Assembly: GCA_017303505.1 (NCBI GenBank)
Contig: JAFLCP010000006.1
Span: 1 to 64,000 of the forward strand
Length of the DNA: 64,000 nucleotides
Direction: 5' to 3'
From: Planctomycetota bacterium
Lineage (GTDB): Bacteria; Planctomycetota; Planctomycetia; Pirellulales; Pirellulaceae
The notes beneath the pieces were generated by a model, which did no database searches, was not told the origin of the DNA, and saw only the letters and a program-made list of their open reading frames with translations. Shown here one piece after another: positions 4,153 to 32,672 of the stretch. Within the stretch, counting starts at the first letter, position 1. Each line of letters starts with the position of its first letter. A program made the translations under genes and the position numbers.

Positions 4153-4192
4153 CGATGTGTTTCGATTTGCTTTAGTGACGAGGAATTAGCAC

Positions 4193-8268: not shown

Positions 8269-11200
8269 ATGGCCATGTTCAAAAACGGCAACTCGGTTAG
8301 TGGCATTCGAAGTGTTGAGAAGAAGCGCGCTTTGTTGCGCAGGATTTTGCTGGAAACATTGGAGCGCCGCGAGTTGATGGCGGCAGACTCGGCAGGGGTG
8401 ATATTCGCTCCTGGTACCCCGAAAGATTATGCCGATACTTGGCTTGATTTCTACAAGCAAGGAACGTCAGGAACGGGCGAACCAGACGGGAATTCCGGCA
8501 ACTTTGATGCAGGTGGTGGCGGCCGTTGGAGCAACCCAGTGGGTGGTCCTTCTCCCAACATGGGTGATCCGTCCACCGTGACCTGGAGTATTGTTCCAGA
8601 CGGAACCTTGGTGGGCAGCAACCAAGACCCAAGTAACTTCATCGCGTTCATGGACGGCATTTACGGCGGTGGCGCCGGTCCAGTCAATACGCGTCCTTGG
8701 TTCCCACTCGTACAACGAGCTTACGATAACTGGGCAGCAGTTTCTGGTCTGACCTTTGTGTACGAATCGTTTGACGACGGTGCTCCACAAGGTGGATCAA
8801 ACCGTGGTATTCAAGGTGTTCGAGGTGACGTTCGCATAGGCGGTGCCGCCGTCGACGGTGACTTCGGTATCTTGGCTTACAACTATTTTCCAAGCAACGG
8901 CGGTAATTCTGGTTTCGACGGCGATATGGTCCTCGACACTAGCGACGCGTTTTACGGCTTAAACTCGGACGGCCCTTCAGGTGAAAATCGTGCACTGCTC
9001 AACGTATTGATGCACGAAGCAGGCCACGGTATTGGTCTAGGTCACGTCGACCCTGTCAACCAAACCAAATTGATGGAGCCATTCCTTTCGACCGCATTCT
9101 ATGGCCCACAGCATGACGACATCTTGGGTGGTCAAACGCTGTACGGCGATGATCGCGAAAGCAATGATGCTGCTACAACGGCCACTTCGTTGGGCACCAT
9201 CAGCAACGGCACACGCACTTTATCTTTGTTGTCGATGGACAACAACGCTGACCGCGATTTCTTCAGCTTTGATGCACCATCTTCGGGTCGCATCACCCTT
9301 TCGATCACGCCTGTCGGTTTTCAATATGACGTTGCTCCTACCGGCGGTTCAGTGGGTCCTGTTAACAGCTTGCTCTACAGTGACTTATCCTTCCAAGTTC
9401 TCGGGTCGGATGGACAAACCATCTTGGCTCAAGTGAACAATGGCGGCTTGGGCGTTACTGAAGTATTGACTGACTTCGATATCCGCACACCTGGACGATA
9501 CTACATCCGCGTCGATGGTACCACGGACGTCGTACAGTTGTACGACTTCTCGCTGGTGGCTACCGGTTTCCGATCCGCAAACGCAGACGTTCGAGCACCA
9601 CAATTGATCAGCGTTAATCCAAACGCTGGCTCGATCTTCAGCTTTGTCGACCCTAACCTCAACCGACTATCGGTATCGCCACGCGAACTCATCTTCCGAT
9701 TCGATGGTGCTCAGCAACTTGACCCAGCGACCCTGGGCTCGATCCGTATTACACGCAGCGGCGATGGTACCTTTGGAAATGGCAACGATATCGTCATCGA
9801 GCCAGGCTACCTTGGCTTTGGCGATACCGATCGTATTGTGATCGCTCGCTTCAAGGAAACATTGCCCAACGATTTGTATCGAATTGAGATCTTTGGATAT
9901 GACGATCCCGATCGCGGTGTCATCGGCCTACGCAACATCGACGGCATCTTGCTGGAACCACGCGTTCCTGGAACAGACCGCGATACCATCGACTTCCGCT
10001 TAGAACTCGGTGCGCAAATTGTTAGCGTCGTTCCACAACCCGTTCAGAAATCGGGCAACACTTGGACCCAACAAACAAACGTCATCGAAGTTTACTTCAA
10101 CGAAGATGATTTGTGGCCAGTTGCTGTAAGCTCCACCGGCTCACCTTCCGATCCTTCGATTGTGAACACTCAGTTCTATCAGTTGCACTTAACTGGTAAC
10201 ACCGTTCGCAATACAGATGATACCGTATTCAATCCATTATCGGTGACTTACGACCCAGCCCTCAACAAGGCTGTTCTGACATTCGACAGCTCGGCAACCG
10301 CCACTAATCCGTTCAACTACACCCTCTACAACGGTGCTGCCTATCGCTTGCGAATCGGAACCAGCGAAACGATTCCAACGGTTCCCTTCACTATCGATGC
10401 AGTGGCTACTGATCCAGCTGATACGTTTACCAACGCAACGGGCTTAGGAACATTCTCGGGCTTCCAGAGTTTGCTAGTCAACTCGGAAATTGTGAACCAA
10501 ACGAACTATAACCTCGACTTCCCAGGCGCACCGGACACCCCTGGCGTTCGTGAAGTCAATGCAACCCCCGGTGATACCGATTACACCAGCATCGATCATT
10601 TGCGAGCTGATGCACCTGATACCGATAGCACCATCAAGACCCAATACTACAACTTCCTCAAGACCCAGCCTTACGGTACAAGTTCGCAAGGAACGTTGTT
10701 GTTCAGCTCGATCACCTCGGTCCAAGAACAACGCATCCGCGAAGTCCTGTCGTTCTATGCCCAATACTTGGGTATCAAGTTTGTTGAAACAGATGCTCCG
10801 GTTGGTGCAGATGACTGGACCATCGTCGTTGGCGACTTGATTCCATTGGGAAGCAATAGCTCTGAAGGTGGCACACTGGGCTTAGCTGGCTTCCAGCCTC
10901 CAGGTGTTCGTGCTAACCACACCTTCGGCCGAAACACCGTTATTCTCGATCGTGCGGAAACTTGGAACGATGCCTTTGGCGCATCGGACAGCGTGAAGCC
11001 AAGTTTGTTCGTTGTTGCAATGCGAGAAATCGGCAACCTGCTTGGCCTTGGACAAATGTCCGAGTTGCCTCCAGGCACAATCATGGGTGGTAACTATACC
11101 AATGCCACCCTCGGTGGAGAACCATCGCTTCTTGGAAACAACCCAACCGAACCCGTATTCCCTGGCGATCAAGATATCATCGCCGGTCGTTATCTTCACC

Positions 11201-14200
11201 GACCAGATAGCCGCGATATTGACCTCTATCGCTTTACCATCGCCCCAGGACAAGCAGGACTTTTCACAGCTGAAATCGTCTCTGAGCGTTTGACTGACGG
11301 TAGCTTGCTGGATTCTTACTTAACTTTATATCGTCAGAAACCAGACGGAAGCCGCGAAGTCATCGCGGTTAACGACGATTACTTCAGCCAAGATTCCTTC
11401 TTGCAACTGGACCTTGCAGAAGGGACCTATTTCTTAGGCGTCAGTGCTTCGGGCAACGCGAACTATAATCCCGACATCAATGATTCCGGCATGAATGGAA
11501 CATCGGAAGGTGGCTATTCGCTACGAACCACGTTCCGTCCATTGGTCAATCGTCAAATTGTTGATGTTTCCAGCACTGCGTTGGATGGTGATCTCGATGG
11601 TGTTGCCGGCGGTGTTTTCAACTTCTGGTTCCGCGCCGCTCAACCATTGACCGATGCTTCGAGCACCGCTGTTCGAACCATCTTTGTTGATAAGTCACAT
11701 GTTCAGAACACATCGCCAGGTGCACCAGCCCTTGGTTCATTGGCGAACCCATATAACAAGATCTCGAGTGCACTATCGGTTGCCCGCCCTGGCGATATCG
11801 TTCGCATCTTGGGCAATGGTGGCTTGGATGGCAATGCGTTAACTCTTGCCGATTCGTATGCGTATGAAATCGGTACCGGTGGTCCATTGAACCAACCGCT
11901 CAGCGACGGCGCAACGATGAACGTTCCGCGCGGTGTCACTGTGATGATCGATGCTGGAGCTGTCTTCAAGTTGCGTGGCGCGAGCATCAACGTCGGTTCA
12001 ACGACCAGCAGTGTCGATCGCAGCCGTGGCAATTTGCAAATTCTTGGCAAACCTGGCCAAACTGTTCTCTTTACCAGCTATCAAGATGAAACGATTGGCG
12101 TTGATACCAACCCAATTACGACCACTGCGAAGCCAGGCGACTGGGGTGGAATCGAGTTCAAGAATGACATTGATCAAGCTGAAGGCCGTTTCAGTTTCGA
12201 ACGCGAAGGCATTTTCTTGGACTATGTCAATAACGCCGATATTCGTTACGGCGGTGGTCAAGTTTCGCTCGACTCGCAAACCCGCGTCATTGCCCCAATC
12301 CAAATGGCAAAGACCCGTCCAACTATCACCTTCAACACGATTACGTTGAGTGCTGATGCGGCGATGTCGGCCGATCCTGACAGCTTTGAAGAAACCACCT
12401 TCAACACTTCGCTCTACCAACTCAACGGCACCTTCACACCGGACTACACACGAGTTGGTCCGATGATTCGAGGTAACGCCCTGAGCAACAACTCGACCAA
12501 CGGCTTGTTCGTTCGTGTTGATACGTTGCCAGGCAACGCAACTACACAACAAACCGTGGCCGGTCGTTGGGACGATACCGATATTACTCACGTTATCGGT
12601 CAGAACGTGGTATTGGCAGGCACAGCTGGCGGTCCAAAACTAGAAAATGCTCGCCCAGCGATTAATTCTGTGACGCTAGCAGGTGTCCGTGTTACCGGTG
12701 GTACATTGGCTCCGCCAGTCGCTGGTACGGTGACCTACAATTATCGCCTCGTTTATGTTGATGCTGCTGGTGGTGAAACCTTAGCCAGCAATGCAACACA
12801 GAACGTCAACCTCACCTACACCACGCCATCGGCTACATTTAATGCCGTTCAATTGACACTGCCAACAGCCCCAGCGGGTTTTGTGGCTCGTCGCATTTAT
12901 CGCAGCCAATCCAACGGTGCTGGTCCCTATGTGTTGGTCACAGAACTCAATCGCAGCAGTTCGGTTTATGTCGACCGCGGCGGCTCTTTGGGCAACATTT
13001 TGGTTGACCGAACCGAATTGAATCGTCCTCGCTTGGACTCCAGCTTGGTCATCGATCCAGGCATCGTAATCAAGTCCGATGGTGCACGCATTGAAGCAGG
13101 CATCGGCACTACGTTGATCGCTGAAGGCCGTGATGGAATCCCAGTGATCTTCACCAGTCGTCGCGATGACCGTTACGGTGCATCGGGTACCTTTGATACC
13201 AACAATGACGGAGTTTCCGCACCAAACGCCGGTGATTGGGGTGGAATCTACTTCGGTCACTTGAGCAAAGGTTCTATCGATCACGCTTTGATCACGTTTG
13301 CGGGTGGTATCACTAGCATCGCTGGTAATTTTGCGGGCTTCAACGCGACGGAAATCCATCAAGCCGATGTTCGCATCAGCAACACCGTTTACGAACAAAA
13401 CTCCAGTGGCTTTGGTGCGCAATCGACATCAAACCGCGACGGTCATGGCTTCAACGAAGCAGCCGTCGTTTTTGTTCGCGGTGCTCAACCTGTGATCATC
13501 AACAACATTTTCCGCAACAATCCAACTCCGAATACACCTGTGATCAGCATCAACGCCAACGCGTTGACTTCGGACAGCGTATTGGATGCAGGTCGTCAAC
13601 GCGGCTTCGCAGATCGCTTGACCGAAGTTGTCGACAACCTAGGTCCAATGATCTATGGTAACTTTGTTGGCGGTAACTCGCTTAACGGTATGGACGTTCG
13701 CGGCCAAACCTTGACCACTTCAACGGTTTGGGATGATACCGATATCGTGCACGTTCTGCGCGACGAAATCATCGTGCCAGACTTGAATGTTTTAGGTGGC
13801 ATCCAACTCAAGAGCCGTCCCACGGAAAGCTTGGTTGTTAAATTATCTGGAAACGCTGGCTTCACCGCGACAGGTCGTCCGCTTGAAATCGATGACCGCA
13901 TCGGCGGTATCGTTCAAATCGTCGGCAGCCCTGGCTTCCCAGTTTACCTGACCTCCTTGCGGGATGACTCGATCGGTGCTGGCTTTGATCCAACCGGTTT
14001 GGCTCAAAACGACACCAACGGTGACGGACCAAGTGTAGGTAATGCAGGTGATTGGCGCAGCATTCGTCTCGACAAGTACAGTCACGACCGCAACGTTGAA
14101 ACAATCGTTGAACAAGAATCTCCACGTGTAACAGCCCCTGGAACCAACGCGGTTCCTTCCAACGCTCAACAATTGGGTGTATTGGCAGCTGCCGAAGATG

Positions 14201-17200
14201 AAGGTGACGAAAATCTTCGCTTAGGCTTTACCGTACAAGGCGTAATCAACGAGAAGTCGGACATCGACGTTTACAGCTTTGTCGGTAACGCTGGAACAGA
14301 AGTGTGGATCGATATCGATCGTACCACCAATGCCCTAGATACCGTTGTTGAACTGGTTAACGGCAATGGTGAAATCATTGCCCTCAGCGACAACAGCTAT
14401 GATGAAGCTTTGGGTAGCTATAGTATCTACAAGAACCCAGAATTGATTCCTCTACATCAGGCCAATAGCCTGCCACGAGATGCCTTCTTCCCCAAGAATG
14501 GCAACGGTACAACCACCGACTTCTATTCAACCAACCCATTTGACGCTGGCTTCCGCATCGTATTGCCTGGCGTTATCGGCGAGTTGAATACTTACTTCGT
14601 GCGTGTACGCAGCTCCAACATTGACTCCTTGAATCCAGCCGCTAACCGCGATGATCTTCAAGATCCATCCAAGTTGCGTGATGGTAAGACCACCGGCCGT
14701 TATCAATTGCAAGTTCGCTTGAGAGAGATGGACGAATGGGGTGGATCGTCGGTTCGCTATGCCGATATTCGCTATGCGACCACTGGCATCGAAGTATTGG
14801 GTATGCCTGCTCATTCGCCTCTGCTCGGTGAAGCTATCGAACCGCTACAAGCTGGTGTCGATACCAACAACAACATCGGCGGTGCTGTAGATCTAGGTAA
14901 CTTCTCTAACACCGACCGCGCTGCTTTGAGCATTGCGGGAGAATTGGCAACTGCCAACGACGTCGATTGGTATCGCTTCGATATCCAAATTGATTCGATC
15001 CAAGGCAGTGGTTTAGCTCAACACTTAGCAACGATTATCGACATCGACTATGCGGATGGTTTGGCTCGTCCAAACACTTCGTTCTGGTTGTATTACAACT
15101 CGCCAAACGGCGTTCAATTAGTGGCTGCTGGTACCGATTCGAACATTGCCGACGATCGCAGCGCTCCGCTGAACGGCTCCGATATGGATGACCTTTCTCG
15201 CGGTAGCGTTGGGTTCTTGGATGCCTACTTGGGATCGACGGAACTCACTGCTGGTACGTACTTCTTGGCGGTTACCAATAACTCGCAAATCCCAACCGAT
15301 TTGCGTCAATTCCAAGAAGGTAACCCATCGAACCCATTGGCTCGTTTGGAACCTGTTAACAGCATCAACAAGATCAGCGAAGACCGCTTCAATCAAGCAC
15401 CAAACACAACAGCTTTCGGTGCAACCCAAGTTGCCTTCAACGGCAATGCAAACGCAATCGACTACACCCTGGGCGATGTGGTTCTCTTTGTTTCACGCCC
15501 CAACGCAAGCGGTATCGTTTCGGACTTGTTAACGGTCGATTCGCTCACTGGTACTCCAGAAACATCGATTCGTACATTCCCATTCGTATTCGACATCGCA
15601 ATGCGACCAGACGGTAACCTTTATGGTTACGAAATCCCAACGACCGTTGCTTCGACCGACAACAACAACGGTAACTACATCCGAATTGATACGGCGGGCA
15701 ACGGCACCAACGTTGTAGCGGGTAACTCGGGTATCGATACCTTTACCCAAAACAATAACACACCTCCGGATGATGCGAAGGTTGCCGCTAACCCTGAAAC
15801 AGGTGCTGATGATGGTATCGGTATTCAATTCCGAGCCATCACCTACACCACAGGTTCCAGCCTCGGCCTCTACGGCGCAGGTAGCCGCGGTTACAACCAA
15901 GGCACCTGGAACGCTTTGGTCAACACTCCACAGAGTTCACGCAACTACATCTACCAGATGAACCCTGTGTCTGGTGCCGCGACCAGCTCGCCACAGACCG
16001 ACCGAATCAATGCCGGTCGAGCTGCCCCTGCAACCGCTCCAATTCAAGCGGCAGGTACCCAGATTCGCGAACGTGGGTGGGTCAATACGACCACCGATAT
16101 CAACCCACAAGCTTCCCGTGTGTTGTATACGTCGCCGGCTCGAACCAATCTCGCATCGGGCAACATCGTCGACGGTGATTTGATTACCGTAAACGGTCAA
16201 CGATATGAATTTGATGCAGGCACCACGGACCCAGCCATTCGTTTGAACATCACGCCACCTGGCTTGGTTCCAACCGATGGCCAAACCTTTACCCTAACGG
16301 TTGGTGCAACAACCTACACCTTCGAATTCGACACCGGTCGTGTCCTCGAAGTGACAGCAGGTGGTTCAGCGGCCTTGGAAGGTCAAACCATCGTCATTCG
16401 CGATGCGGCTAACGTTGACCATACGTTTGAATTCAGTGCAGACAACACCTTGGCAACTCCGGGTGCCATTCGAATCCCATATCGTGTCGATGATTCGTCG
16501 GACAACATTGTCACCAACATCACTAATGCCATCAACGGCGCTGGTTTAACCATCACCGCTGAAATCTTGGCCGGAACACAGCGCATCACCTTGAATGGCG
16601 ACATCGCTTTGACCGAAAACACCGCAGCAACACAAGTTGCCGCTGGTACCGAGTACGGTTTGCTCAACGCTGCCGCGACCTCAATTCTTGTCGAAGAAAC
16701 TTGGACTAATGCCCAAGCTGCTGCGGCGATTTTGGCGGTCCTCGATGGCACACATGCCAGCGGTGTAGTGGCCTCGCTATTAGGCAATGAGATTACCTTC
16801 AATGGTGCAGACCAAGGCTTCTTTGATACCACACCATGGTTCATCGTGGTATCGACGGGCGTAAGCGTTCAGCCGGGCAATATTCCAATTCCATTCAGCA
16901 TCGATGATTCGGCTGCTGAAATTGCTCAGTCTGTTTACACTTCGCTTTCCACAATCATCCCTGGCGTTACTTGGACGGGTAACTCTGTATCGTTGCCAAA
17001 CGGCTTCGCTTACGATACGACATTAACCCACTTCCAACGCTCGACATCAGGTCGTGTTGGTCCTTTGTCTCTCGACTTTGCCCCACTTCCATTAGCTATT
17101 GCTCAAGCACCTTATGTTCAAGGTGTGGCAATGGTTGGTTCGAGAATGTATGCCGTGAGCGAACGCGGTGACTTGTTCGAAGTCGGTACCTACAACGCGA

Positions 17201-20200
17201 TAACGGGTGTTGTCAGTGCATTTAACCCATCGTCCACCGCAAACCGTGGTGACTACATCGCTACAATTGCTGACCCTGACACGGGTGCCACGGTGACCTT
17301 CTCCGGGCTAACCGTAGGTCCTCGCAACGTAGAAGGTGGCCGATTCGATGACGTACTTTTCGGTATCGCCAGCAACGGTGATATCTACGCATTCGACGTT
17401 CGCGGTCGCTTGGTTCCTGCCTTTGCAAACGGCAAGTCCAAGATTAGCACCGGTATCGCCGGTGCAAACGGCTTGGCCTTCAGTAACCTCGACGTCAACC
17501 TCTGGCACGTAAGTGCAAACCGCAGCGGTGATGCAGGTCACGGTGTTGAATCCACATTCGACGGTTCGCGAACCGCCGATAGCGCTGCTGGTAACAGCCT
17601 CTACTTCGGTTTCGAAGATCCTAAGAAGGGCTCACCAGTACAAGTGGGTAACTGGGGCGGCGTTTGGGATCTAGGTAATACCGGCGTGGCATCGGACTAC
17701 GATGCAGGCCGCTATAACACCTATGAATTCCCAGGTGGTGCACAAGGTAGCATCGAAAGCAATCCTCTCGACCTTACGCAATACAGTGCCGAAGATAAGC
17801 CAACCTTGTATTTCAACTATCGCTTGGCCACGGAAAACGCCAATAGCGATTTGAACGACGCAACGGTAATGCGTGATTCGTTCCGCGTATTTGCTGCGGA
17901 CGATGATGGTGTATGGCATCTGTTGGCAACCAACAACTCGATGTTCGATAGCGAACGCGTTTTCAACTCGAACGACGAGAAAGACTACTTTATCAACGGT
18001 ACCGACCGTCAAGTTCAAGAACTTTACGATGTGAACGACACTAACAACGGCACCCGTCCTGCAGCAGCGAACAGCTGGCGTCAAGCTCGAATCGATCTCG
18101 GCGATTTCGCAGGCAAAGCGAATGTCCGTCTCCGCTTCGACTTCTCGACTGCCGGTTCGATGGCTAACCGTGTGTTGGGAACTGGCGGAGAAGAAATTCG
18201 TGTTGTAGAAGCCAATCGCTTGGCTGATGGCGACACCTTTACGATTCGACGCACTGTTGCTGGAAACCCTGTTGATTCGATTTTCGAATTCGAATTCGGA
18301 GCAACCTTCAACGCTCCAAGCGGTGCGAATATCCCTGAAGGTGCAACGTTTGATGTCGACGGAACCACATTCACTTTCACCGCTACCCCAGCATCGATTA
18401 CCGATATTCAAATCGGTAACAGCGATAACTCGGGAACTATGGCGGCACGAATTGCAGCTACCTTGGCAAACAATGGTTTCACGGTATCGGTTGATCCTGT
18501 GAACCTCACACGACTTTCGGTTCCCAATGCGACCACCGCCACTCAAGATGGTTCGCTTCCAGCCAACTTCATCGACGGTTTGCCAGGTGTTGCTCCAGGT
18601 AATCTGCCTGTCTTCGTAACCTACGATATGTCGGTTGCCCAAGTACGGGATGCGATTCGCGTCGCTCTGGCTCTTCAGTACAACGAACTGAGCGAAAAAT
18701 CGAACATCGACACCTTCCGTGTCGAAAACGAAATTCTGCGTCTCAACGAATTGCGAGTGGTTGATCCAGGTAAACTCGGATTGTCGCGACAAGGCGTATC
18801 GTCCTCGGACATCTTCGGTGGCTTTGGATCGAACCTGCGTGGCCAAAACAACCGCTTCGAAGGCGTCTACATCGACGACATCATCGTTGGTTTTGCAGAA
18901 CGTGGCGAAATCGTCACCAACGGTACGATTGGGGGAACGGGCTTCGCTTCGAACTTGCAGTACGAACCGCAAGCTATCACGGGTGAAGACAAGGTTGAAG
19001 TTGAAACTGGCAAGTACCAAGTCGAAATCCGTCGAGCTGCTTCGTTCGGCATCAATGGTGGCACTTCCTTGTCGCTTGACCCAATGGCGGGTGCACGTGC
19101 CTTCGACACCAACGAACGTTTGACTCAAGGCTTTGCATTGGTTGCTCGTCCTGGCTCGCAAATCGCTGACGGCGAGAGCTTCACCATCAGCGACGGTGTG
19201 AACACGGTTCGCTTCGAATTCAATGACACCACCATCAATGCTCCATTGCCAGGTGCTGGCTTTACTCAAGGTAATATTGAAGTTCCATTCACTCCAACCA
19301 TGACTACTGCCGAGATTGCCCGCGCTATTCGCGACGCAATCAACAGCTCGGATTCTCAAGCAGTTCTAAAGGTAATAGCTGGTTTATCCGACTCTCGAAA
19401 CGACAGTGCCTCAAGCAGTTCGATCCTAGTGAACCTCTATGGTGCGGCGGGTGCGGACAACAATGCAACCAACAACTTCGGCGACATCGCGTGGGTTGAA
19501 TTTGCCGTAGATAACTTCGATAAGGAAGATGCTGGCGACTCCAACCGCAAGCGTGATCAAGGCCAGATCATTCTGCACAGCAACATCGTTCGTGATAGCA
19601 GCTCTTTCGGTATCATCATTGATGCTGCCTCACGAGTCAGCACATTGACGCCACTGGCAGGTGCCTTGCCACATTCCGGACCAATCCGCAACTTACCTCA
19701 AGTAAACACGGAAGGTTGGGTGCCTGGTGTTGTTGCAGCCAACAACGTTTTGGCCTCGAACCGAGCGGGCGGCATCCTATTTAGTGGTGATTCACGCGTC
19801 GGTAACACCATGAATGCGTCGGTACCATTCGGGCGTTTGATCAACAACACGATCTACGGCATGAACGCTTCCGACATTGGTATCAGTGTGACCAACAACG
19901 CTAGCCCAACATTGCTCAACAATATCGTGGCTAATCTTGGAACGGGTATCCAAGTTGACGCTTCAAGCAACACGACCGTTGTCGGTTACACCTTATATCA
20001 AGGTAACCGCACCAACACCGTTGGTACCACTGCGGGTGCTCAAGCAATTCAGCTCACAGCTACCGATCCATTGTTTGTCAACGCAACAGGATACAACTTC
20101 TATCCAGCTCCGTTGTCCAAGGCCATCGACAGCTCGCTTGATGCTCTAGCAGACCGCCCTGAACTTGTATCAGTGCGAACCGCTGTTGGACTTCCAGTTT

Positions 20201-23200
20201 CGCCAATTTTGGCTCCATCGCGTGACATCACTGGTCAATTGCGTGTTGACGATCCTGCGGTCACAACACCATCCGGTCAAGGTGGAAACGTATTCAAGGA
20301 TCGCGGTGCTTATGATCGTGCCGACTTCGTCAGCCCGATTGCCCAGTTGCTCGTTGCTCAAGACAACGACAATGAAGGCCGAGATATCGACCCGAACTTG
20401 ACCTACGTGCAGTTGCTCGAAGGCACACTCGATCACTTCTCGATCTTGCTGTTGGAAGACAACGGAACAGGTCCAGACGTATCCACAGTTTCCAAGCTAT
20501 CCGTATCGATCTTGGAAGATGGCCGCTTGTTGCGAGAAGGCGTTGACTATACCTTCGGCTTCAACGTTACCAATCGAACCATCCGCTTGACTCCACTGTC
20601 AGGTATCTGGCGACCAGGTAGCGCCTACGAAATCACACTTAACAACCGTGATCGATTTGTGCTCTCCGCACAAGATGGCGCGTCGGTTGCTGATGGCCAA
20701 CAGTTCCGTATCGTTGATCAAAACGGTGTAAGTGCCGTTTATGAATACGAAAGTGGTTACAGCATCCAAGTACCACAAACACTCGCGATCACTGTTCCTG
20801 CAGTCGGTGCAGCCACCGGTGGTGTTATCGATGGCCAGAGCTTCAAGATTGGTTTCAACGGCACGGAAGTGACGTTCGAACTCGACTCGAACAACAATAC
20901 TGTCTTGGGCAACACCCCAATCAGCATTGCAGTCGGCGACACGGCGACTCAAGTTCGCGACAAGATCTTGGCAGTGCTCCTCGCAGACACTCTGTTGAAC
21001 TTGGCACCTAAGGCTGTTGGCACCGACTCGATCCACTTGGGTAGCTTGCCTCTGCATACTTTGGATATCAGCAACTCGTTGTTGATTCCATCGGGTGTTT
21101 CGGCGGGTGTTGAAGACGGTCAATCCTTCAGCTTCACTCAAGATGGCCAAACCAAGGTCTTCGAGTTCAACACGGTTGGTGACACCAACATTGGAACTGG
21201 AAACATTGCGATTCCATTCTTGCGAACCATGACCAATTCAGATATCGCTGCTGCGATTGTGAATATCATGACAGCACAGGCCTACGACTTGCCAATTTTG
21301 GCGGACCTCGGTAACGGTTTGGTACATATCGGTGGTCGCAGCGGTCATGTCTTGGATACTTCGGCATCCTTGCTACAAGGCCTCGGCACCCCAGGTGTAT
21401 CGAAGAGCCTAGAGCTCCTCGTTCCATCAATGGCCGGCCCTGGTGCTATTCAAGATGGTGAAACCTTCACCATTACACGTGGCACACAAACGATCACCTT
21501 TGAGTTCAACAGCAACGCTGCTACCACTCCTGGTAACACCGTGATTAACTTCTCACCAAGCAACACGGCTGCACAAGTCGCTACTGCGATCGCCAACGTG
21601 ATCCGCGGTACCACACTTGGTTTAACCGGTGCACAAGCAATCGGTGATGTGGTCAAACTCAACGAAGGTATTGGTTACACCATCAATACTGGAACATCGC
21701 GACTGGTACAGTCGGGGGTTTCCGGTGGAGCGATTCCGATCGTTTATACACCTTCGGCGAAGTTCACCGCTGATGACATGGCAGGTGTGATCATCAACGC
21801 GATCAACGGTACCGCTTTCGCTGCAGACGCTCGATCGCGAGGTAGCGAGACGATCTTCTTGACCGGTGCAAGCGTCGTCACCGATATCGACAACATCGAA
21901 ATTTTGGGCATCACCGACGTTGCCGGAAACTTCCTTGCTCCAAACCGAAGCAACCAAGAAACTCAGTTCACGATCTTGTTGCCAGGTGTAAACCTTGACT
22001 ACAGCGACTCGCCTGACCCAGGCTACAGCACTGTGCTAAACAGCAATGGTGCTCGTCACGTGGTTCTTGCAAATGATCCATTGCGATTGGGCAACGTCAT
22101 CACCACGGAAACCAATGGGGTTCCAACGGCCGATGCCTTAGGCGATGGTGGCGACGACGGTGTGACCTTCAGTGGTGTCTTTAACGAAAACACCAACCCT
22201 GTGGTCGTCACAATCGAAGCCTCTGAATCAGGCTTGATCGATGCCTGGGTTGACTGGAACCGCGACGGTGACTGGAACGATCCAGGTGAGCAGTTCATGA
22301 ACACCGTTCCCGTTCGTCCAGGCTTGAACACCTTCTCGCTGGTAACTCCTGTAGGGGCTTCGATCGGTACTACCTTCGCTCGCTTCCGAATCAGCAGTGC
22401 TGGTGGCCTCTCGCCAACTGGCGTGGCGATGGACGGTGAAGTTGAAGATTACTTGATCAACGTCTTGCCAGGAACACCACCGGTAGGAACAGCGGATCAG
22501 TACGCAGTTCTCGAAGGTGGCGTTCTAACAACCATTCAAACAACGGAACTAGATGCGTTACTAAATAACAACGGTGTGTTGGTCAACGACAATGCAGGTA
22601 CTCCTGCTGGTACGATGTCCGCACAACTTGTTACAGGTCCAAGTAACGGTTCATTGGTGCTCAATGCGAACGGTACGTTCACTTATACTCCAGCGACCGA
22701 TTACTTTGGTAGCGATTCCTTTGTCTATCGAATTGTTAATACCAACGGCTTGATTGCCAATCAAAACACAACGGTTAGCATCACGGTTGTTCCACAGAAT
22801 GACAATCCAACAGCGATCGATCTAACCTACAGTGCAGGCCAAGGTTCAACGGTTACCATTCCGCTGGCAGACCTGTTGCTCAATAGCACAGCGGGTCCAA
22901 CCAATGAATCCAACGCAGCTCCTGCAGGTCAAGGACAAATCGTGTCGATTCATCCGGTGACACCTGTTGGTTCGGCAACTCCAGCTGGCTCAACTGTTAG
23001 CTACAACTCGACTACGGGAATGGTCACCTTTACACCAAGTTCTGCTGCAATCACTCAAGGTACCTTTGAGTACACCTTGATCGATGACGGTAAGGATGGT
23101 GTTCAAGCGGATAACGTACAGACAGGTGAAGTCAATGCGTTCAAGACAGTAACACGCCTTGTCACCATCAACTTCATTCCAGTCAACGACCCACCAACGT

Positions 23201-25029
23201 TCACACCTGGACCATCGACTATTACCGTCGACGAGGACTCTGGCAGCTACTCGGCAGCCTGGGCTTCCAACATCCTGCCAGGCCCTGTAGGAGATCCTGG
23301 TGAGTCGGGACAAACCGTAACGTTTGAAGTGACCCCAACGACGAGCACAAGCTTGTTTGCAACCGCACCAGCGATCAGTTCCACCGGTGTGCTAACCTTT
23401 ATCCCAGCAGCGAATGCTAATGGGACGGTTATCCTCAGCGTGGTTGCTCGTGACAGCGGAAGCAATGTTGCTCCTGACCGTAACTATTCCGATCCGGTGC
23501 TCCTGACAATCACCATCAACTCGGTGAACGATGATCCTGTTGCATCCAACAGCTACAACTACACCATTACAGAAGATACTCTGTTGTCGGTGAATGCTCC
23601 TGGCTTGTTGACACTCGCAACGGACAACGACTTGCCCAATGATGTCTTGTCGGGAGTTGTAGCCAACACGACCAGCCTGCGTGGTGCACCAGTTGTCGTC
23701 AATGCCAACGGGTCATTCAGCTATGATCCTCGCAGCGTGGCTCAACTACAGGCGTTGTCCAATGGCCAATTCTTGTTGGACTCTTTCACCTATCAAGTGA
23801 GAGACGCCGCTGGAGCCCTCAGCAACGTGGCAACCGTTCAGATTCGTGTCGACGGTACGAACGATGCACCTGTCGCCGTTAACGATCCGGCATCTGGCCG
23901 CTTCGTAGTGGCTGCTGGATCGAACCGAGTCTTGACGATCTTGAGCAATGACACCGATGTTGATAATGCCATCAACCCAGCTTCCGTGTCGCTCGAAATC
24001 CTTCCAAGCTTTGGTACAGCAATTGTGAATTCCGATGGTACCGTAACCTATCGTCCGTCGACGGGCTTCCGCGGCAACGATTCGTTCACTTACCGAGTTC
24101 GCGACGTGTTGGGTGCTGTGTCCAACGAGGCAACCGTAAGTATTTTGGTCAACGACTCGCCGGTAGCGGTTGGCGACCAAGCCTTCACCAGCCGAAACTT
24201 GCCAGTAAACATCAACGTCCTTGCCAATGACAATGATCCTGACGGCACGCTAGATACCACAAGCGTTACCATTGTAACTGCTCCTTCAGCAGCTCAAGGT
24301 ACCGCACAAGTACTCTCGAACGGTCAGATCCGCTTCACACCGGCTGCAAGTTTCGTGGGCGAAGCAACCTTCTCCTACACGGTTCGTGATAACGTCGGAA
24401 CCACATCCAATGTGGCTCAAGTACGCGTCACGGTTATCTCCAGTGCATGGCAGAACCAAGGCAATCGTTACGACGTCAATGCTGATACTTATGTGACTGC
24501 AATCGATGCCTTGATTGTTATTAACACCATCAATCGTAACGGTGGTACCATCATCCTCGTGCCAGGTGTAAGTGCACCACCACCTCCATACTTGGATGTG
24601 GACGGCAACAACGTTGTCAATTCACAAGATGCATTGAATGTCATCAACGAGTTGAATCGACGATCGGGAATCGGTGGTGAAGGCGAAGGTTCGGCAGAGG
24701 GTGAAGGTAGCGGCGACTTCAGTATGGCCTACTTGGCCGGTGGCTTGGTCACACAAGCAACCACCCAGTATGTTGGAACCAACGCTATGGTGTCCGCCGT
24801 AGGTCAAGCCATCACCCGCGAAGTGCAAGCCGGTTTGGATTCGATGTTGTTCAATTCGGGTCGCCGAGTTGCAACCGTCCCAGCCTTCGGCAGCTACCCA
24901 ACGGGTCGACTGGAAGATCTGCTCGCCGACGATATGGACGATGTCTATACACTGCTAGCAGCTGACAATGAAGAAGATGATGAAGCAACCGATGTTCTCC
25001 TTTCGGATATCGATTCGCTGCTCAGCTAA
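8269..25029 (+). CDS. Giant secreted LEPR-XLL/dockerin surface protein, 5586 residues
   Basis: One intact 16.8-kb frame. Residues 28-41 (LLETLERRELMAAD) form the LEPR-XLL motif. A matrixin-type zinc site HEAGHGIGLGH (His249, Glu250, His253, His259) is followed by a PPC-like domain (297-430). A second matrixin-like domain ends in a degenerate site near 918-929, followed by another PPC-like domain (about 977-1090). A right-handed beta-helix with long internal repeats spans about 1138-1930, then PPC-like domains near 1961 and 2197 and propeller-like stretches. Ten copies of a DGxxF...FEF module lie between 2635 and 4500, a GEVED domain at 4650-4735, about six cadherin-like/Big_9-type repeats to 5390, a dockerin pair (5394-5468) and an acidic tail. 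AAGGG precedes the ATG. The family setting points to an extracellular or envelope-attached adhesin or matrix protein; peptidase activity is plausible but unproven. Confidence 0.9.
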   Translation: MAMFKNGNSVSGIRSVEKKRALLRRILLETLERRELMAADSAGVIFAPGTPKDYADTWLDFYKQGTSGTGEPDGNSGNFDAGGGGRWSNPVGGPSPNMGDPSTVTWSIVPDGTLVGSNQDPSNFIAFMDGIYGGGAGPVNTRPWFPLVQRAYDNWAAVSGLTFVYESFDDGAPQGGSNRGIQGVRGDVRIGGAAVDGDFGILAYNYFPSNGGNSGFDGDMVLDTSDAFYGLNSDGPSGENRALLNVLMHEAGHGIGLGHVDPVNQTKLMEPFLSTAFYGPQHDDILGGQTLYGDDRESNDAATTATSLGTISNGTRTLSLLSMDNNADRDFFSFDAPSSGRITLSITPVGFQYDVAPTGGSVGPVNSLLYSDLSFQVLGSDGQTILAQVNNGGLGVTEVLTDFDIRTPGRYYIRVDGTTDVVQLYDFSLVATGFRSANADVRAPQLISVNPNAGSIFSFVDPNLNRLSVSPRELIFRFDGAQQLDPATLGSIRITRSGDGTFGNGNDIVIEPGYLGFGDTDRIVIARFKETLPNDLYRIEIFGYDDPDRGVIGLRNIDGILLEPRVPGTDRDTIDFRLELGAQIVSVVPQPVQKSGNTWTQQTNVIEVYFNEDDLWPVAVSSTGSPSDPSIVNTQFYQLHLTGNTVRNTDDTVFNPLSVTYDPALNKAVLTFDSSATATNPFNYTLYNGAAYRLRIGTSETIPTVPFTIDAVATDPADTFTNATGLGTFSGFQSLLVNSEIVNQTNYNLDFPGAPDTPGVREVNATPGDTDYTSIDHLRADAPDTDSTIKTQYYNFLKTQPYGTSSQGTLLFSSITSVQEQRIREVLSFYAQYLGIKFVETDAPVGADDWTIVVGDLIPLGSNSSEGGTLGLAGFQPPGVRANHTFGRNTVILDRAETWNDAFGASDSVKPSLFVVAMREIGNLLGLGQMSELPPGTIMGGNYTNATLGGEPSLLGNNPTEPVFPGDQDIIAGRYLHRPDSRDIDLYRFTIAPGQAGLFTAEIVSERLTDGSLLDSYLTLYRQKPDGSREVIAVNDDYFSQDSFLQLDLAEGTYFLGVSASGNANYNPDINDSGMNGTSEGGYSLRTTFRPLVNRQIVDVSSTALDGDLDGVAGGVFNFWFRAAQPLTDASSTAVRTIFVDKSHVQNTSPGAPALGSLANPYNKISSALSVARPGDIVRILGNGGLDGNALTLADSYAYEIGTGGPLNQPLSDGATMNVPRGVTVMIDAGAVFKLRGASINVGSTTSSVDRSRGNLQILGKPGQTVLFTSYQDETIGVDTNPITTTAKPGDWGGIEFKNDIDQAEGRFSFEREGIFLDYVNNADIRYGGGQVSLDSQTRVIAPIQMAKTRPTITFNTITLSADAAMSADPDSFEETTFNTSLYQLNGTFTPDYTRVGPMIRGNALSNNSTNGLFVRVDTLPGNATTQQTVAGRWDDTDITHVIGQNVVLAGTAGGPKLENARPAINSVTLAGVRVTGGTLAPPVAGTVTYNYRLVYVDAAGGETLASNATQNVNLTYTTPSATFNAVQLTLPTAPAGFVARRIYRSQSNGAGPYVLVTELNRSSSVYVDRGGSLGNILVDRTELNRPRLDSSLVIDPGIVIKSDGARIEAGIGTTLIAEGRDGIPVIFTSRRDDRYGASGTFDTNNDGVSAPNAGDWGGIYFGHLSKGSIDHALITFAGGITSIAGNFAGFNATEIHQADVRISNTVYEQNSSGFGAQSTSNRDGHGFNEAAVVFVRGAQPVIINNIFRNNPTPNTPVISINANALTSDSVLDAGRQRGFADRLTEVVDNLGPMIYGNFVGGNSLNGMDVRGQTLTTSTVWDDTDIVHVLRDEIIVPDLNVLGGIQLKSRPTESLVVKLSGNAGFTATGRPLEIDDRIGGIVQIVGSPGFPVYLTSLRDDSIGAGFDPTGLAQNDTNGDGPSVGNAGDWRSIRLDKYSHDRNVETIVEQESPRVTAPGTNAVPSNAQQLGVLAAAEDEGDENLRLGFTVQGVINEKSDIDVYSFVGNAGTEVWIDIDRTTNALDTVVELVNGNGEIIALSDNSYDEALGSYSIYKNPELIPLHQANSLPRDAFFPKNGNGTTTDFYSTNPFDAGFRIVLPGVIGELNTYFVRVRSSNIDSLNPAANRDDLQDPSKLRDGKTTGRYQLQVRLREMDEWGGSSVRYADIRYATTGIEVLGMPAHSPLLGEAIEPLQAGVDTNNNIGGAVDLGNFSNTDRAALSIAGELATANDVDWYRFDIQIDSIQGSGLAQHLATIIDIDYADGLARPNTSFWLYYNSPNGVQLVAAGTDSNIADDRSAPLNGSDMDDLSRGSVGFLDAYLGSTELTAGTYFLAVTNNSQIPTDLRQFQEGNPSNPLARLEPVNSINKISEDRFNQAPNTTAFGATQVAFNGNANAIDYTLGDVVLFVSRPNASGIVSDLLTVDSLTGTPETSIRTFPFVFDIAMRPDGNLYGYEIPTTVASTDNNNGNYIRIDTAGNGTNVVAGNSGIDTFTQNNNTPPDDAKVAANPETGADDGIGIQFRAITYTTGSSLGLYGAGSRGYNQGTWNALVNTPQSSRNYIYQMNPVSGAATSSPQTDRINAGRAAPATAPIQAAGTQIRERGWVNTTTDINPQASRVLYTSPARTNLASGNIVDGDLITVNGQRYEFDAGTTDPAIRLNITPPGLVPTDGQTFTLTVGATTYTFEFDTGRVLEVTAGGSAALEGQTIVIRDAANVDHTFEFSADNTLATPGAIRIPYRVDDSSDNIVTNITNAINGAGLTITAEILAGTQRITLNGDIALTENTAATQVAAGTEYGLLNAAATSILVEETWTNAQAAAAILAVLDGTHASGVVASLLGNEITFNGADQGFFDTTPWFIVVSTGVSVQPGNIPIPFSIDDSAAEIAQSVYTSLSTIIPGVTWTGNSVSLPNGFAYDTTLTHFQRSTSGRVGPLSLDFAPLPLAIAQAPYVQGVAMVGSRMYAVSERGDLFEVGTYNAITGVVSAFNPSSTANRGDYIATIADPDTGATVTFSGLTVGPRNVEGGRFDDVLFGIASNGDIYAFDVRGRLVPAFANGKSKISTGIAGANGLAFSNLDVNLWHVSANRSGDAGHGVESTFDGSRTADSAAGNSLYFGFEDPKKGSPVQVGNWGGVWDLGNTGVASDYDAGRYNTYEFPGGAQGSIESNPLDLTQYSAEDKPTLYFNYRLATENANSDLNDATVMRDSFRVFAADDDGVWHLLATNNSMFDSERVFNSNDEKDYFINGTDRQVQELYDVNDTNNGTRPAAANSWRQARIDLGDFAGKANVRLRFDFSTAGSMANRVLGTGGEEIRVVEANRLADGDTFTIRRTVAGNPVDSIFEFEFGATFNAPSGANIPEGATFDVDGTTFTFTATPASITDIQIGNSDNSGTMAARIAATLANNGFTVSVDPVNLTRLSVPNATTATQDGSLPANFIDGLPGVAPGNLPVFVTYDMSVAQVRDAIRVALALQYNELSEKSNIDTFRVENEILRLNELRVVDPGKLGLSRQGVSSSDIFGGFGSNLRGQNNRFEGVYIDDIIVGFAERGEIVTNGTIGGTGFASNLQYEPQAITGEDKVEVETGKYQVEIRRAASFGINGGTSLSLDPMAGARAFDTNERLTQGFALVARPGSQIADGESFTISDGVNTVRFEFNDTTINAPLPGAGFTQGNIEVPFTPTMTTAEIARAIRDAINSSDSQAVLKVIAGLSDSRNDSASSSSILVNLYGAAGADNNATNNFGDIAWVEFAVDNFDKEDAGDSNRKRDQGQIILHSNIVRDSSSFGIIIDAASRVSTLTPLAGALPHSGPIRNLPQVNTEGWVPGVVAANNVLASNRAGGILFSGDSRVGNTMNASVPFGRLINNTIYGMNASDIGISVTNNASPTLLNNIVANLGTGIQVDASSNTTVVGYTLYQGNRTNTVGTTAGAQAIQLTATDPLFVNATGYNFYPAPLSKAIDSSLDALADRPELVSVRTAVGLPVSPILAPSRDITGQLRVDDPAVTTPSGQGGNVFKDRGAYDRADFVSPIAQLLVAQDNDNEGRDIDPNLTYVQLLEGTLDHFSILLLEDNGTGPDVSTVSKLSVSILEDGRLLREGVDYTFGFNVTNRTIRLTPLSGIWRPGSAYEITLNNRDRFVLSAQDGASVADGQQFRIVDQNGVSAVYEYESGYSIQVPQTLAITVPAVGAATGGVIDGQSFKIGFNGTEVTFELDSNNNTVLGNTPISIAVGDTATQVRDKILAVLLADTLLNLAPKAVGTDSIHLGSLPLHTLDISNSLLIPSGVSAGVEDGQSFSFTQDGQTKVFEFNTVGDTNIGTGNIAIPFLRTMTNSDIAAAIVNIMTAQAYDLPILADLGNGLVHIGGRSGHVLDTSASLLQGLGTPGVSKSLELLVPSMAGPGAIQDGETFTITRGTQTITFEFNSNAATTPGNTVINFSPSNTAAQVATAIANVIRGTTLGLTGAQAIGDVVKLNEGIGYTINTGTSRLVQSGVSGGAIPIVYTPSAKFTADDMAGVIINAINGTAFAADARSRGSETIFLTGASVVTDIDNIEILGITDVAGNFLAPNRSNQETQFTILLPGVNLDYSDSPDPGYSTVLNSNGARHVVLANDPLRLGNVITTETNGVPTADALGDGGDDGVTFSGVFNENTNPVVVTIEASESGLIDAWVDWNRDGDWNDPGEQFMNTVPVRPGLNTFSLVTPVGASIGTTFARFRISSAGGLSPTGVAMDGEVEDYLINVLPGTPPVGTADQYAVLEGGVLTTIQTTELDALLNNNGVLVNDNAGTPAGTMSAQLVTGPSNGSLVLNANGTFTYTPATDYFGSDSFVYRIVNTNGLIANQNTTVSITVVPQNDNPTAIDLTYSAGQGSTVTIPLADLLLNSTAGPTNESNAAPAGQGQIVSIHPVTPVGSATPAGSTVSYNSTTGMVTFTPSSAAITQGTFEYTLIDDGKDGVQADNVQTGEVNAFKTVTRLVTINFIPVNDPPTFTPGPSTITVDEDSGSYSAAWASNILPGPVGDPGESGQTVTFEVTPTTSTSLFATAPAISSTGVLTFIPAANANGTVILSVVARDSGSNVAPDRNYSDPVLLTITINSVNDDPVASNSYNYTITEDTLLSVNAPGLLTLATDNDLPNDVLSGVVANTTSLRGAPVVVNANGSFSYDPRSVAQLQALSNGQFLLDSFTYQVRDAAGALSNVATVQIRVDGTNDAPVAVNDPASGRFVVAAGSNRVLTILSNDTDVDNAINPASVSLEILPSFGTAIVNSDGTVTYRPSTGFRGNDSFTYRVRDVLGAVSNEATVSILVNDSPVAVGDQAFTSRNLPVNINVLANDNDPDGTLDTTSVTIVTAPSAAQGTAQVLSNGQIRFTPAASFVGEATFSYTVRDNVGTTSNVAQVRVTVISSAWQNQGNRYDVNADTYVTAIDALIVINTINRNGGTIILVPGVSAPPPPYLDVDGNNVVNSQDALNVINELNRRSGIGGEGEGSAEGEGSGDFSMAYLAGGLVTQATTQYVGTNAMVSAVGQAITREVQAGLDSMLFNSGRRVATVPAFGSYPTGRLEDLLADDMDDVYTLLAADNEEDDEATDVLLSDIDSLLS
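8980..9050 (+). other. Intact matrixin-like zinc site within the giant gene
   Basis: Codons for residues 249-259 read HEAGHGIGLGH, the full HExxHxxGxxH metzincin signature, about 220 residues after the N-terminal motif. Downstream TKLMEPFLST supplies a methionine where matrixins have a Met-turn. All three zinc-binding histidines and the catalytic glutamate are present, so this copy could be active. Confidence 0.85.
10870..11100 (+). other. Degenerate second matrixin-like domain within the giant gene
   Basis: Residues 918-929 read MREIGNLLGLGQ, aligning with HExxHxxGxxH but with Arg919, Asn923 and Gln929 in place of the three histidines; Glu920 is kept. The following PPGTIMGG resembles a Met-turn. 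The lead-in (RIREVLSFYAQYLGIKFVET) also matches matrixin helix A. With no zinc ligands this copy should be catalytically dead and may bind or scaffold. Confidence 0.75.
11680..14060 (+). repeat. Beta-helix region with three long internal repeats
   Basis: The protein segment opens with IFVDKSHVQN...GSLANPYNKISSAL, a typical entry to right-handed parallel beta-helices. A block of the form (I/V)xGxxGxPVxFTSxxDDxxG...GDWGGIxF recurs starting at residues 1254, 1614 and 1881. A companion block (GPMIxGN...NG...WDDTDIxHV) recurs at 1398 and 1795. Repeat spacing is about 270-400 residues. This suggests growth of the gene by internal duplication. Confidence 0.75.
16165..21960 (+). repeat. Ten-copy DGxxF...FEF protein module in the giant gene
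   Basis: A short module recurs with its first acidic residue at 2635, 2670, 2704, 3320, 3357, 3634, 4142, 4188, 4283 and 4396. The first half is (D/E)Gxx(F/I)x(I/L), a variable turn, then (F/Y)EF(D/N/E). In complete copies a second half follows 20-30 residues later: GNxxIPFxxxxTxxxIAxAIxxAI. The last three copies are spaced 95 and 113 residues apart and share an ending of the form LD-S-LL-SGV. Several early copies are half-modules. I do not recognise it as a named domain. Confidence 0.8.
24448..24672 (+). other. Dockerin-type calcium-binding repeat pair of the giant protein
   Basis: Residues 5394-5468 contain DVNADTYVTAIDALIVINTIN and DVDGNNVVNSQDALNVINELN, two EF-hand-like dockerin half-repeats separated by a Pro-rich spacer. 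The smaller upstream surface protein ends with the same arrangement, opening with a matching WQN. Here a further tail of about 118 residues follows, ending in many Asp and Glu residues. Confidence 0.85.
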
Positions 25030-30735: not shown

Positions 30736-31692
30736 TTATGGTCCCATCAAAGGCAACATGTCTCGGGCCATCTGAATACCGGCAGGGCCAACAAGAACCA
30801 CGAAGATTCCCGGGAAGATGAAGAGCACCAGCGGGAAAATCAACTTCACCGCCGTTTTGGCCGCCTTTTCTTCAGCGATCTGTTGACGCTTGGTACGCAT
30901 CGCATCGCTTTGTGTACGCAATGCCTGAGCGATACTTGTTCCAAATTTATCGGCTTGGATCAACGTCGAACCAAGAGCACGCAGATCATCAACACCGGTA
31001 CGACTACCTAATTCTTGAAGAACTTGAGCTCGGGTTCGTCCCATTTGCAAATGCAAATTGCACAATCCAAACTCCTCAGCGATTTCGCGCCAACTTTTCT
31101 TCATTTCTTCCGCAACTTTTCGCATCGCTTGGTCGAGACCCAAACCGGATTCGACGCAAACCACCATCAAGTCCAACGCATCTGGCAAACCACGGAAGAT
31201 TTGTTGCTTGCGAGTCTTGCCGAAGTAATCGAGAATGAAGTTGGGAGCCATCAAACCAACCACCAGCGAACAAATTAGCGGCAGCAATGCGCTTTCGCTA
31301 AAGCCCACAAGCAGCATGGTCAACCCACCACCTAAGGTGAAGCAAACCAACATGGACAAAAAGCGGAGTGAGAGAAAAATGGCCATCGCATTTTCCTTGC
31401 GAAAGCCCGCTTCACTTAACCGTTGACGCAATGCGCCAATGTCCTTCTCTGTCTTGGGCTGCAACGCTTGCGACAATTGAGGGGAAGCGTCTTCAAGAAG
31501 CTTTGCTAACTCTTCTTTACGACTTCGCGTCGTCCCAGATTTGCCGTTCTTTCCTGATGCATCTCGAAGGAACTTCAGGCGGTGATCATAGTTCGAGCCC
31601 TGCCCGACGTTGAGCAGTTGGATCACCCACCAAACAAGAGATGCAACACCGACAAACGCCGTCACCGCAATGATGATTTGTGTTGAGTTCAT
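30736..31692 (-). CDS. tadC: Tad pilus/secretion inner-membrane protein TadC (T2SS F family)
   Basis: A 318-residue inner-membrane platform protein of the GspF/TadC family. An N-terminal membrane segment (about 5-24) is followed by a soluble region, a pair of membrane segments (about 105-155), the conserved cytoplasmic domain with GLPDALDLMVVCVESGLGLDQAM and FGTSIAQALRTQSDAMRTKR, and a C-terminal membrane segment ending near LPLMGP. In Tad systems TadB and TadC form the base on which the TadA ATPase acts. It is the last gene of tadA-tadB-tadC, beginning only 14 bases after tadB. Confidence 0.9.
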   Translation of the reverse strand: MNSTQIIIAVTAFVGVASLVWWVIQLLNVGQGSNYDHRLKFLRDASGKNGKSGTTRSRKEELAKLLEDASPQLSQALQPKTEKDIGALRQRLSEAGFRKENAMAIFLSLRFLSMLVCFTLGGGLTMLLVGFSESALLPLICSLVVGLMAPNFILDYFGKTRKQQIFRGLPDALDLMVVCVESGLGLDQAMRKVAEEMKKSWREIAEEFGLCNLHLQMGRTRAQVLQELGSRTGVDDLRALGSTLIQADKFGTSIAQALRTQSDAMRTKRQQIAEEKAAKTAVKLIFPLVLFIFPGIFVVLVGPAGIQMARDMLPLMGP

Positions 31693-31706
31693 AGATTGAT
31701 CCGCTC

Positions 31707-32672
31707 TTAAACTTGTACGTTAATGATCTTCTTAATCCACATTGCTCCCAAAAATTGGAGGAACAATGCACCAGCCATCAGCTTTCGTCCGGTCGGATCG
31801 TCGATCAGAACCATCGTGTATTCTTTATTCAAGAAGTACATCACGACGAACAATCCCGGTGCTAACGCCAACAATACGATACCTGACAACCGACCTTCGC
31901 CCGTTAACGCTTGAACTTGACCTGCGAGCTTGAAACGCTCTCGAATCAGTCTCGACAGTTTGTCGAGAATTTCAGCCAAGTCACCACCCGTTTGACGTTG
32001 CAGCGTTACCGCTGTGGCGAAAAATCGCAAGTCAACGTTGGGAACTCGCTTGGTCATCGAGTCCAATGTTTCTTCTAAGGGAACGCCGAAGTTTTGTTCG
32101 TCAAAGGCTCGAGCGAATTCAGGCCCCAGCGGTGCGGGCATTTCTTCGGCACACAATCCGATACCTGCACCCAAGCTATAACCACTTCTTAGCGATCGTC
32201 CAAGTAAATCGAGAGCTTCAGGCAATTGAGCACTGAATTTCTTCAATCGCATGGACCGACGAAATAGCAGGAACATGTAGGGGAGGGCACCCACAATCGG
32301 GAAAGCGATAGGGGCAAAATAGCGTGTGATTGGGAACAGGGCCGTCAGGAACGCACCCACAAAACCGGCTCCAACACTGATCAAGAAGAACTTGCCTGGT
32401 GTTAAAGGAACACCGGCTTGATCCAATAAACCTTGAATGTCGCCGAATTTATTCGCGTATTTGTCAGCCCATGATGTGGATTCATCCAACGCATTGGACA
32501 ACAAGTTCATCGCCGACTCATCTTTACCAGCTTTCATCCGCTGCATTTCGGACATCGCTGATAAACGCTCTTCCGCATTCGAGGCCGGTGAACGCTGCAT
32601 GAAAACAGCAACACTACCAACGAGGGCGGCAATACAAATGCCAACGGAGATGATGATAATCCAGGTAATCAT
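31707..32672 (-). CDS. tadB: Tad pilus/secretion inner-membrane protein TadB
   Basis: A 321-residue GspF/TadB-family platform protein: N-terminal membrane segment (residues 2-25), paired segments around 100-140, the conserved cytoplasmic domain with LPEALDLLGRSLRSGYSLGAG and RQTGGDLAEILDKLSRLIRERF, and C-terminal segments with LAPGLFVVMYFL. AGAGGATT precedes the ATG at a good distance. It lies between tadA and tadC with short gaps of 36 and 14 bases, so the three form one transcription unit. Confidence 0.92.
   Translation of the reverse strand: MITWIIIISVGICIAALVGSVAVFMQRSPASNAEERLSAMSEMQRMKAGKDESAMNLLSNALDESTSWADKYANKFGDIQGLLDQAGVPLTPGKFFLISVGAGFVGAFLTALFPITRYFAPIAFPIVGALPYMFLLFRRSMRLKKFSAQLPEALDLLGRSLRSGYSLGAGIGLCAEEMPAPLGPEFARAFDEQNFGVPLEETLDSMTKRVPNVDLRFFATAVTLQRQTGGDLAEILDKLSRLIRERFKLAGQVQALTGEGRLSGIVLLALAPGLFVVMYFLNKEYTMVLIDDPTGRKLMAGALFLQFLGAMWIKKIINVQV

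Follow-up and report, generated by a model that had tools for sequence, protein, structure and literature searches.

Introduction

Domains that sit inside the loops of other domains are known from both flagella and phages. In FliD, domain D3 is inserted in a loop of D2 (PMC8533109), and T4 gp18 carries domain I within II, II within III and III within IV (PMC3004832). We analysed a 64,000-nucleotide stretch of DNA (the window: assembly GCA_017303505.1, contig JAFLCP010000006.1, positions 1 to 64,000, forward strand) from a planctomycete of the family Pirellulaceae, and describe here a module that recurs ten times in one giant open reading frame (ORF; window 8269-25029, + strand), which encodes a secreted protein of 5,586 amino acids. 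Giant genes of planctomycetes are a known puzzle, and their functional annotation is sparse.

The module appears to share with FliD (D2/D3) and PF07196 (Flagellin_IN) an AIN/INxA helix followed by a beta hairpin, as well as an architecture in which discontinuous domains lie within one another's loops. With the phage sheath insert domain (PF17481; PHROG 165) it shares a hairpin, a helix (DTAxxvAxaI..AI) and a beta hairpin (vtatxxg.vtLta), and the sheath domain is likewise an inserted one. In contrast to both, the module stays below the family cut-offs. Its first hairpin (DG-F..FEF) lies outside the similarity detected to FliD/PF07196, it belongs to a giant secreted protein with peptidase and dockerin domains and not to a flagellar axial protein, and unlike the sheath domain it appears here to nest in its own kind.

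A repeated module with a predicted beta-beta-beta-alpha-beta-beta fold

The ten modules (A1, A2, A3, B1, B2, D, C0, C1, C2 and C3) occupy window 16162-21870, six of them complete and four split; all are encoded on the + strand. The original prediction, made from the letters of the window, had placed a repeated module in ten copies at 16165-21960. The repeat itself was confirmed, and the number ten holds if each split copy is counted as one module. All ten follow the core motif DGxTFxIxDG..tFEFD / GNixV..tTaxxvAxaI..AIN...vxL, and a profile iterated over planctomycete genomes gave a family core of 72-80 residues (DGdTFtIsDGtttvtFEFDdng.vtpGNvaVp...gdTAaeVAqAIaaAINg..glgvtAs..G.riTLtg). The regular ending LD-S-LL-SGV that had been noticed earlier is indeed present in the final array and in homologues of that array, but the conserved part is this core, and what lies beyond it is linker and tail.

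A profile of five full copies recovered most of the other copies in the giant protein. In leave-one-out profiles the five strongest full copies, each scored from the other four, reached 29-62 bits (A3, 29; D, 36.5; C1, 37; C2, 52; C3, 62), compared with at most 15.7 bits in 1,000 shuffles per copy and at most 7.2 bits in windows elsewhere in the protein. Module D (residues 3631-3705, window 19159-19383) stands alone and is uninterrupted.

AlphaFold2 (AF2) modelled copy C3, supplied with 60 aligned copies, at a predicted local distance difference test score (pLDDT) of 84 and a predicted template modelling score (pTM) of 0.78. The model contains strands at 12-17, 20-27 and 37-40, a helix at 47-59 and strands at 69-71 and 74-76, followed by a tail of lower confidence. 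We are confident in the predicted fold, a compact beta-beta-beta-alpha-beta-beta domain, which agrees with the earlier proposal of a discrete domain made of a beta hairpin and a helix. The near-invariant positions, namely the F and E of the hairpin and G, A and I elsewhere, appear to be structural, and the module alignment contains no conserved catalytic motif.

Complementary half-modules flank complete modules

The split modules belong to three clusters, in which N-halves (the beta1-beta2 hairpin) and C-halves (beta3-alpha-beta4-beta5) surround complete modules. Alignments of homologues specific to each cluster (24, 19 and 7 sequences for A, B and C, respectively) were aligned by hhalign to a generic profile of the module, which was built without cluster A's own copy for the tests of A and without the members of cluster C for the tests of C. 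Cluster A has the order N1-N2-full-C2-C1. The N-halves of the outer module A1 (residues 2632-2651, window 16162-16221; probability 96.9, E 1.4e-10, profile columns 4-31) and of the middle module A2 (2667-2690, 16267-16338; 95.3, E 2.4e-8, columns 4-32) precede the innermost, complete module A3 (2701-2778, 16369-16602; 99.7, E 2e-25, columns 4-83), which is followed by the C-half of A2 (2800-2847, 16666-16809; 95.9, E 6e-9, columns 31-81) and then by that of A1 (2866-2912, 16864-17004; 97.8, E 1.1e-12, columns 29-81).

Cluster B has the order N-full-C, with the N-half of the outer module B1 (3316-3344, 18214-18300; 96.1, E 3.6e-9, columns 3-29), the complete inner module B2 (3354-3421, 18328-18531; 96.6, columns 2-78) and the C-half of B1 (3440-3495, 18586-18753; 95.6, E 1.2e-8, columns 31-61). 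In cluster C three complete modules, C1 (4185-4272, 20821-21084), C2 (4280-4369, 21106-21375) and C3 (4393-4479, 21445-21705), stand between the N-half (4139-4163, 20683-20757; 96.2, E 2.3e-9, columns 2-33) and the C-half (4485-4534, 21721-21870; 96.8, E 3e-10, columns 31-81) of the outer module C0.

All halves of the three orthologue families were thus matched at 95-98% probability. Scores for the real blocks of cluster A were 36-127, whereas column shuffling, repeated 60 times for each block, gave maxima of 13-21, and in all three clusters the shuffles (50-60 per block) fell far below the real scores. The four split modules, from three independently aligned clusters, have a single split point in common, the beta2-beta3 loop (columns ~29-33), and sequence profiles place the inserted complete domain or domains between an N-half and a C-half every time. 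On this sequence evidence, the half forms would be complementary parts of single modules that are interrupted by modules inserted in the same loop. The original prediction was right that half- and full-length forms both exist, but the halves do not represent truncated modules, and the nesting had been missed.

An AF2 model of cluster A, based on the 24-sequence alignment, had a pLDDT of 83 and a pTM of 0.67, and in it each N-half forms a hairpin and each C-half a strand-helix-hairpin, as expected. The linkers contain additional short strands at 30-35, 65-69, 164-168 and 223-226, which look like two-stranded connectors if the pairing that we assign to them is correct.

Module number and position vary among homologues

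Cluster C interrupts an immunoglobulin (Ig)-like domain of the host protein. The Ig-like strand directly before the cluster (GSAYEITLNNRD, window 20617-20652, + strand) is contiguous with the part after the cluster in one related genome, G167 (GIWSIGYTYKIELDNQTIRDLANNPLQPN). There the Ig-like domain runs uninterrupted, with no module (GIWSIGYTYKIELDNQ-TIRDLANNPLQPN), while at the same site the window has GIWRPGSAYEITLNNRD, then ~420 residues of modules and linkers, and then ITDVAGNFLAPN, with which the Ig-like domain resumes (window 21910-21945, + strand). Homologues of cluster C keep the outer half-modules and differ in the number of inner modules, which ranges from one (G353 C43, G466) through two (a paralogue in the window genome; G274 C242), three (the window; G353 C2) and four (L130) to five (a second gene of G353 C2; G274 C273; L129). 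Conversely, orthologues carry modules in loops that are free of them in the window, namely after ...SVVPQPV (G167, G181), at W~2122 (G167), at W~731 and W~1105 (G327) and at W~1123 (G353). As the clusters recur across dozens of genomes in open frames without stops, we dropped the idea that they are an assembly artefact.

Within the host's family, 160 of the 199 genomes sampled, representing 53 of 68 genera, encode the module, and the ORFs that carry it are often 4,500-9,500 amino acids long. In a broad sample of the phylum it was present in 37 of 392 genomes. A scan of 84,980 species' contigs with the consensus, by which only close relatives are detectable, returned only metagenome-assembled genomes of Planctomycetota (one of them Pirellulaceae) and one further bacterium. 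Proteins of ~1,800 amino acids in another planctomycete family carry a single copy of the module each; the one of them that was scanned has Kelch and Big_2 domains. Two extreme cases were also encountered: a distant planctomycete has a 19,806-amino-acid open frame with many partial and full module hits (L086, L087; G352:C1:445000-484000), and a 3,538-amino-acid open frame (L129, CAUJKL010000727.1) has ~18 module hits, among them two long series of complete copies.

Relation to phage sheath and flagellar domains

No Pfam or NCBIfam model exceeded its curated cut-off, either for the region or for individual copies. The PHROG scan of the window region gave no naming match; DUF6093, DUF2850 and Plexin_RBD appeared in scans of this region as chance-level names only and were discarded. 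A related-locus search with 1,000 residues of the region, a tblastn search of phages and plasmids with the module consensus and a scan of viral contigs for the module all found nothing. The sensible Pfam leads are PF07196, for which the window region reached at best 12.8 bits (cut-off 22.7) and 2 of 25 and 2 of 60 members reached only E 0.08-0.15, and PF17481, which 1 of 60 members matched at E 0.041, below the cut-off of 31.4 bits. The remaining weak Pfam names are scattered single hits.

Profile and fold comparisons showed that the module, although correctly described before as not recognisable as a named family, is not isolated in sequence space. When a 25-copy profile was compared with PDB sequences, FliD (6iwy) ranked first at E 0.0016 and sheath proteins followed (8fop, E 0.0049; 9hz7, E 0.011). 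PHROG 165 (tail sheath) was matched by 12 of 60 members, at best with E 9.8e-5, and by none of 24 reversed controls. Against Flagellin_IN sequences from within the phylum, hhalign gave a probability of 33% and a score of 23.0, whereas the highest score among 200 column shuffles was 12.4 and that of the reversed control 16.5; this match comprises only 41 columns, the helix and the following hairpin, and leaves the first hairpin (DG-F...FEF) outside. PF17481 is scarce in the phylum (7 of 246 genomes), so the sheath loci there are too few for a good profile.

Foldseek placed the PhiTE sheath first in the PDB for a single module (probability 0.72, E 0.4) and FliD 6iwy first for the nested model (E 6.3e-3, probability 0.41, template modelling (TM) score 0.2). 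In the viral library it placed a baseplate J-like protein first (probability 1.00, E 1.4e-3); this likeness to proteins of uncultured Caudovirales phages is one of structure only, as tblastn of the consensus gave no phage relative. Because the profile and fold matches agree but none of them is strong alone, we consider homology to the phage sheath insert domain likely and homology to Flagellin_IN possible. This suggests that the inserted domains of phage sheath, flagellar cap, flagellar hook and giant surface proteins have a fold of common origin. The subtilisin-like and C-terminal domains of sheath proteins were absent from the host protein in domain scans, which found matrixin, PPC, GEVED, Big_9 and dockerin domains instead.

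A full module (49-58 bits) also lies between D1 and D2 of FlgE hook proteins of another planctomycete family (L037:2091-4955(-), L038 and L097; the Pfam scan covered L037). There, one full copy was scored, in contrast to the ten modules, mostly in nested stacks, of the giant protein. Upstream of its full module L037 has a weak C-half-like match (8.2 bits), and the outer domain of this hook protein may be nested too.

A model of nested side arms and its alternatives

We propose that the module resides as an insert in the surface loops of various domains, among them the beta2-beta3 loop of further copies of itself. The giant protein would then contain three nested stacks, with a depth of three in A and of two in B and C, in addition to the single copy D. 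In each stack the chain would run out through the outer half-module or half-modules, pass through the inner complete module or modules and return through the matching outer halves, which we infer to pair physically into one domain. The likely outcome is a set of side arms, each with both ends meeting at its base, on a secreted matrixin/dockerin protein. Ends close enough for a loop, the tolerance of its own kind and the use in FlgE together suggest that the module is probably an outward-facing structural arm. By analogy with the outer domains of FliD, FlgE and phage sheaths, the arms would act as structural spacers or contact surfaces (for adhesion, or the display of substrates or partners) and not as enzymes, possibly within cohesin-dockerin peptidase assemblies like the planctosome proposed for freshwater planctomycetes (PMC6461901). 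Ig-like repeats arranged in tandem, as in giant adhesins (Big_9, cadherin-like), are present in the same protein and succeed one another like beads on a string, whereas the insertion sites of the module lie within other domains and within its own copies.

We regard this reading, a loop-insertion domain nested in its own beta2-beta3 loop and building structural side arms, as probable, even though several observations weigh against it. The pairing of N1 with C1 and of N2 with C2 is deduced from sequence profiles, and the fold matches in the PDB are weak, both for the single module (best E 0.4) and for the nest (E 6.3e-3, TM 0.2). Moreover, a bracket-balance shuffle test on generic half-profile hits in 19 giant proteins was not significant, with 8 nested pairs compared with a null mean of 4.6 and a 99.9% point of 11. 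The generic hairpin profile is probably too weak and misses diverged host hairpins; the N1 of cluster A in the window escapes it. The cluster-specific tests came after this failed test and are a refinement that had not been planned in advance. The same generic half-profiles counted 22 N- and 46 C-orphan halves, an inequality that would fit a plain tandem array in which the half copies are degenerate leftovers of duplication, as would the tandem full copies that do exist inside cluster C. We nevertheless find such decay quite improbable: the halves are complementary, share one break point and stand N before C around complete modules in 24, 19 and 7 homologues, and both kinds retain well-kept hydrophobic patterns not expected from decay, with AF2 block pLDDT values of ~67-93.

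That the module is merely a diverged Flagellin_IN or tail-sheath domain II, and thus a known family, has in its favour the matches to FliD 6iwy, sheath 8fop and PHROG 165 and a Flagellin_IN score above its shuffled and reversed controls. We think this rather doubtful, as no copy comes near either Pfam cut-off, the 41-column match omits the characteristic hairpin and the PDB fold match of the module reaches only E 0.4. Less probable still is an autonomous binding domain, for example for glycans or metals, whose nesting is a by-product of copy duplication. Peptidase and dockerin domains are typical of extracellular polymer degradation, and the published assembly model points the same way, but no conserved polar or aromatic site exists beyond the hairpin, and the domain also occurs in FlgE hook proteins.

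The module is a family-wide component of planctomycete giant genes and points to one architectural rule, recursive insertion at a single loop. Such self-nesting would account for the half-deleted look of these repeats and for their being missed by domain databases. A search of the literature turned up no earlier description of a domain that nests repeatedly in itself and varies in depth and count, although this is only weak evidence. Such nesting of one domain appears to be unusual. We put forward more tentatively, as an idea that we rate somewhat below even, that the module is a protein-level insertion element, a self-tolerant loop-insertion domain which has spread family-wide, entering both its own loop and those of domains unrelated to it. 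In that case these bacteria would obtain branched giant surface proteins by nesting copies recursively instead of adding them in tandem.

Host protein and neighbouring genes

Besides the module clusters, the giant protein was found in Pfam and NCBIfam scans to contain an N-terminal matrixin (M10) domain, PPC and DVUA0089-type domains, GEVED, Big_9/cadherin-like repeats and a C-terminal type I dockerin. At the start, ahead of the matrixin domain, it has a LERREL motif of the planctomycete type (a weak match to Planc_extracel, E 0.008); in the matrixin domain the zinc site HEAGHGIGLGH is intact (residue 249). A second matrixin-like stretch (residues 918-939, window 11020-11085) has a degraded zinc motif, MREIGNLLGLGQ, so that, judged by these motifs, one M10 copy of the protein looks active and the other is probably dead. 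The dockerin is followed by a strongly acidic C-terminal tail, EDLLADDMDDVYTLLAADNEEDDEATDVLLSDIDSLLS (window 24900-25029).

The adjacent 862-amino-acid ORF (window 5264-7852, + strand) likewise has a type I dockerin at its end (E 1.6e-12), together with a weak PKD match, which suggests a dockerin-based extracellular assembly beside the giant gene. About 6 kb downstream of the giant gene lie two neighbouring genes of the type II secretion system F family (T2SSF; window 30736-32672, - strand), through whose products the giant protein might be exported.

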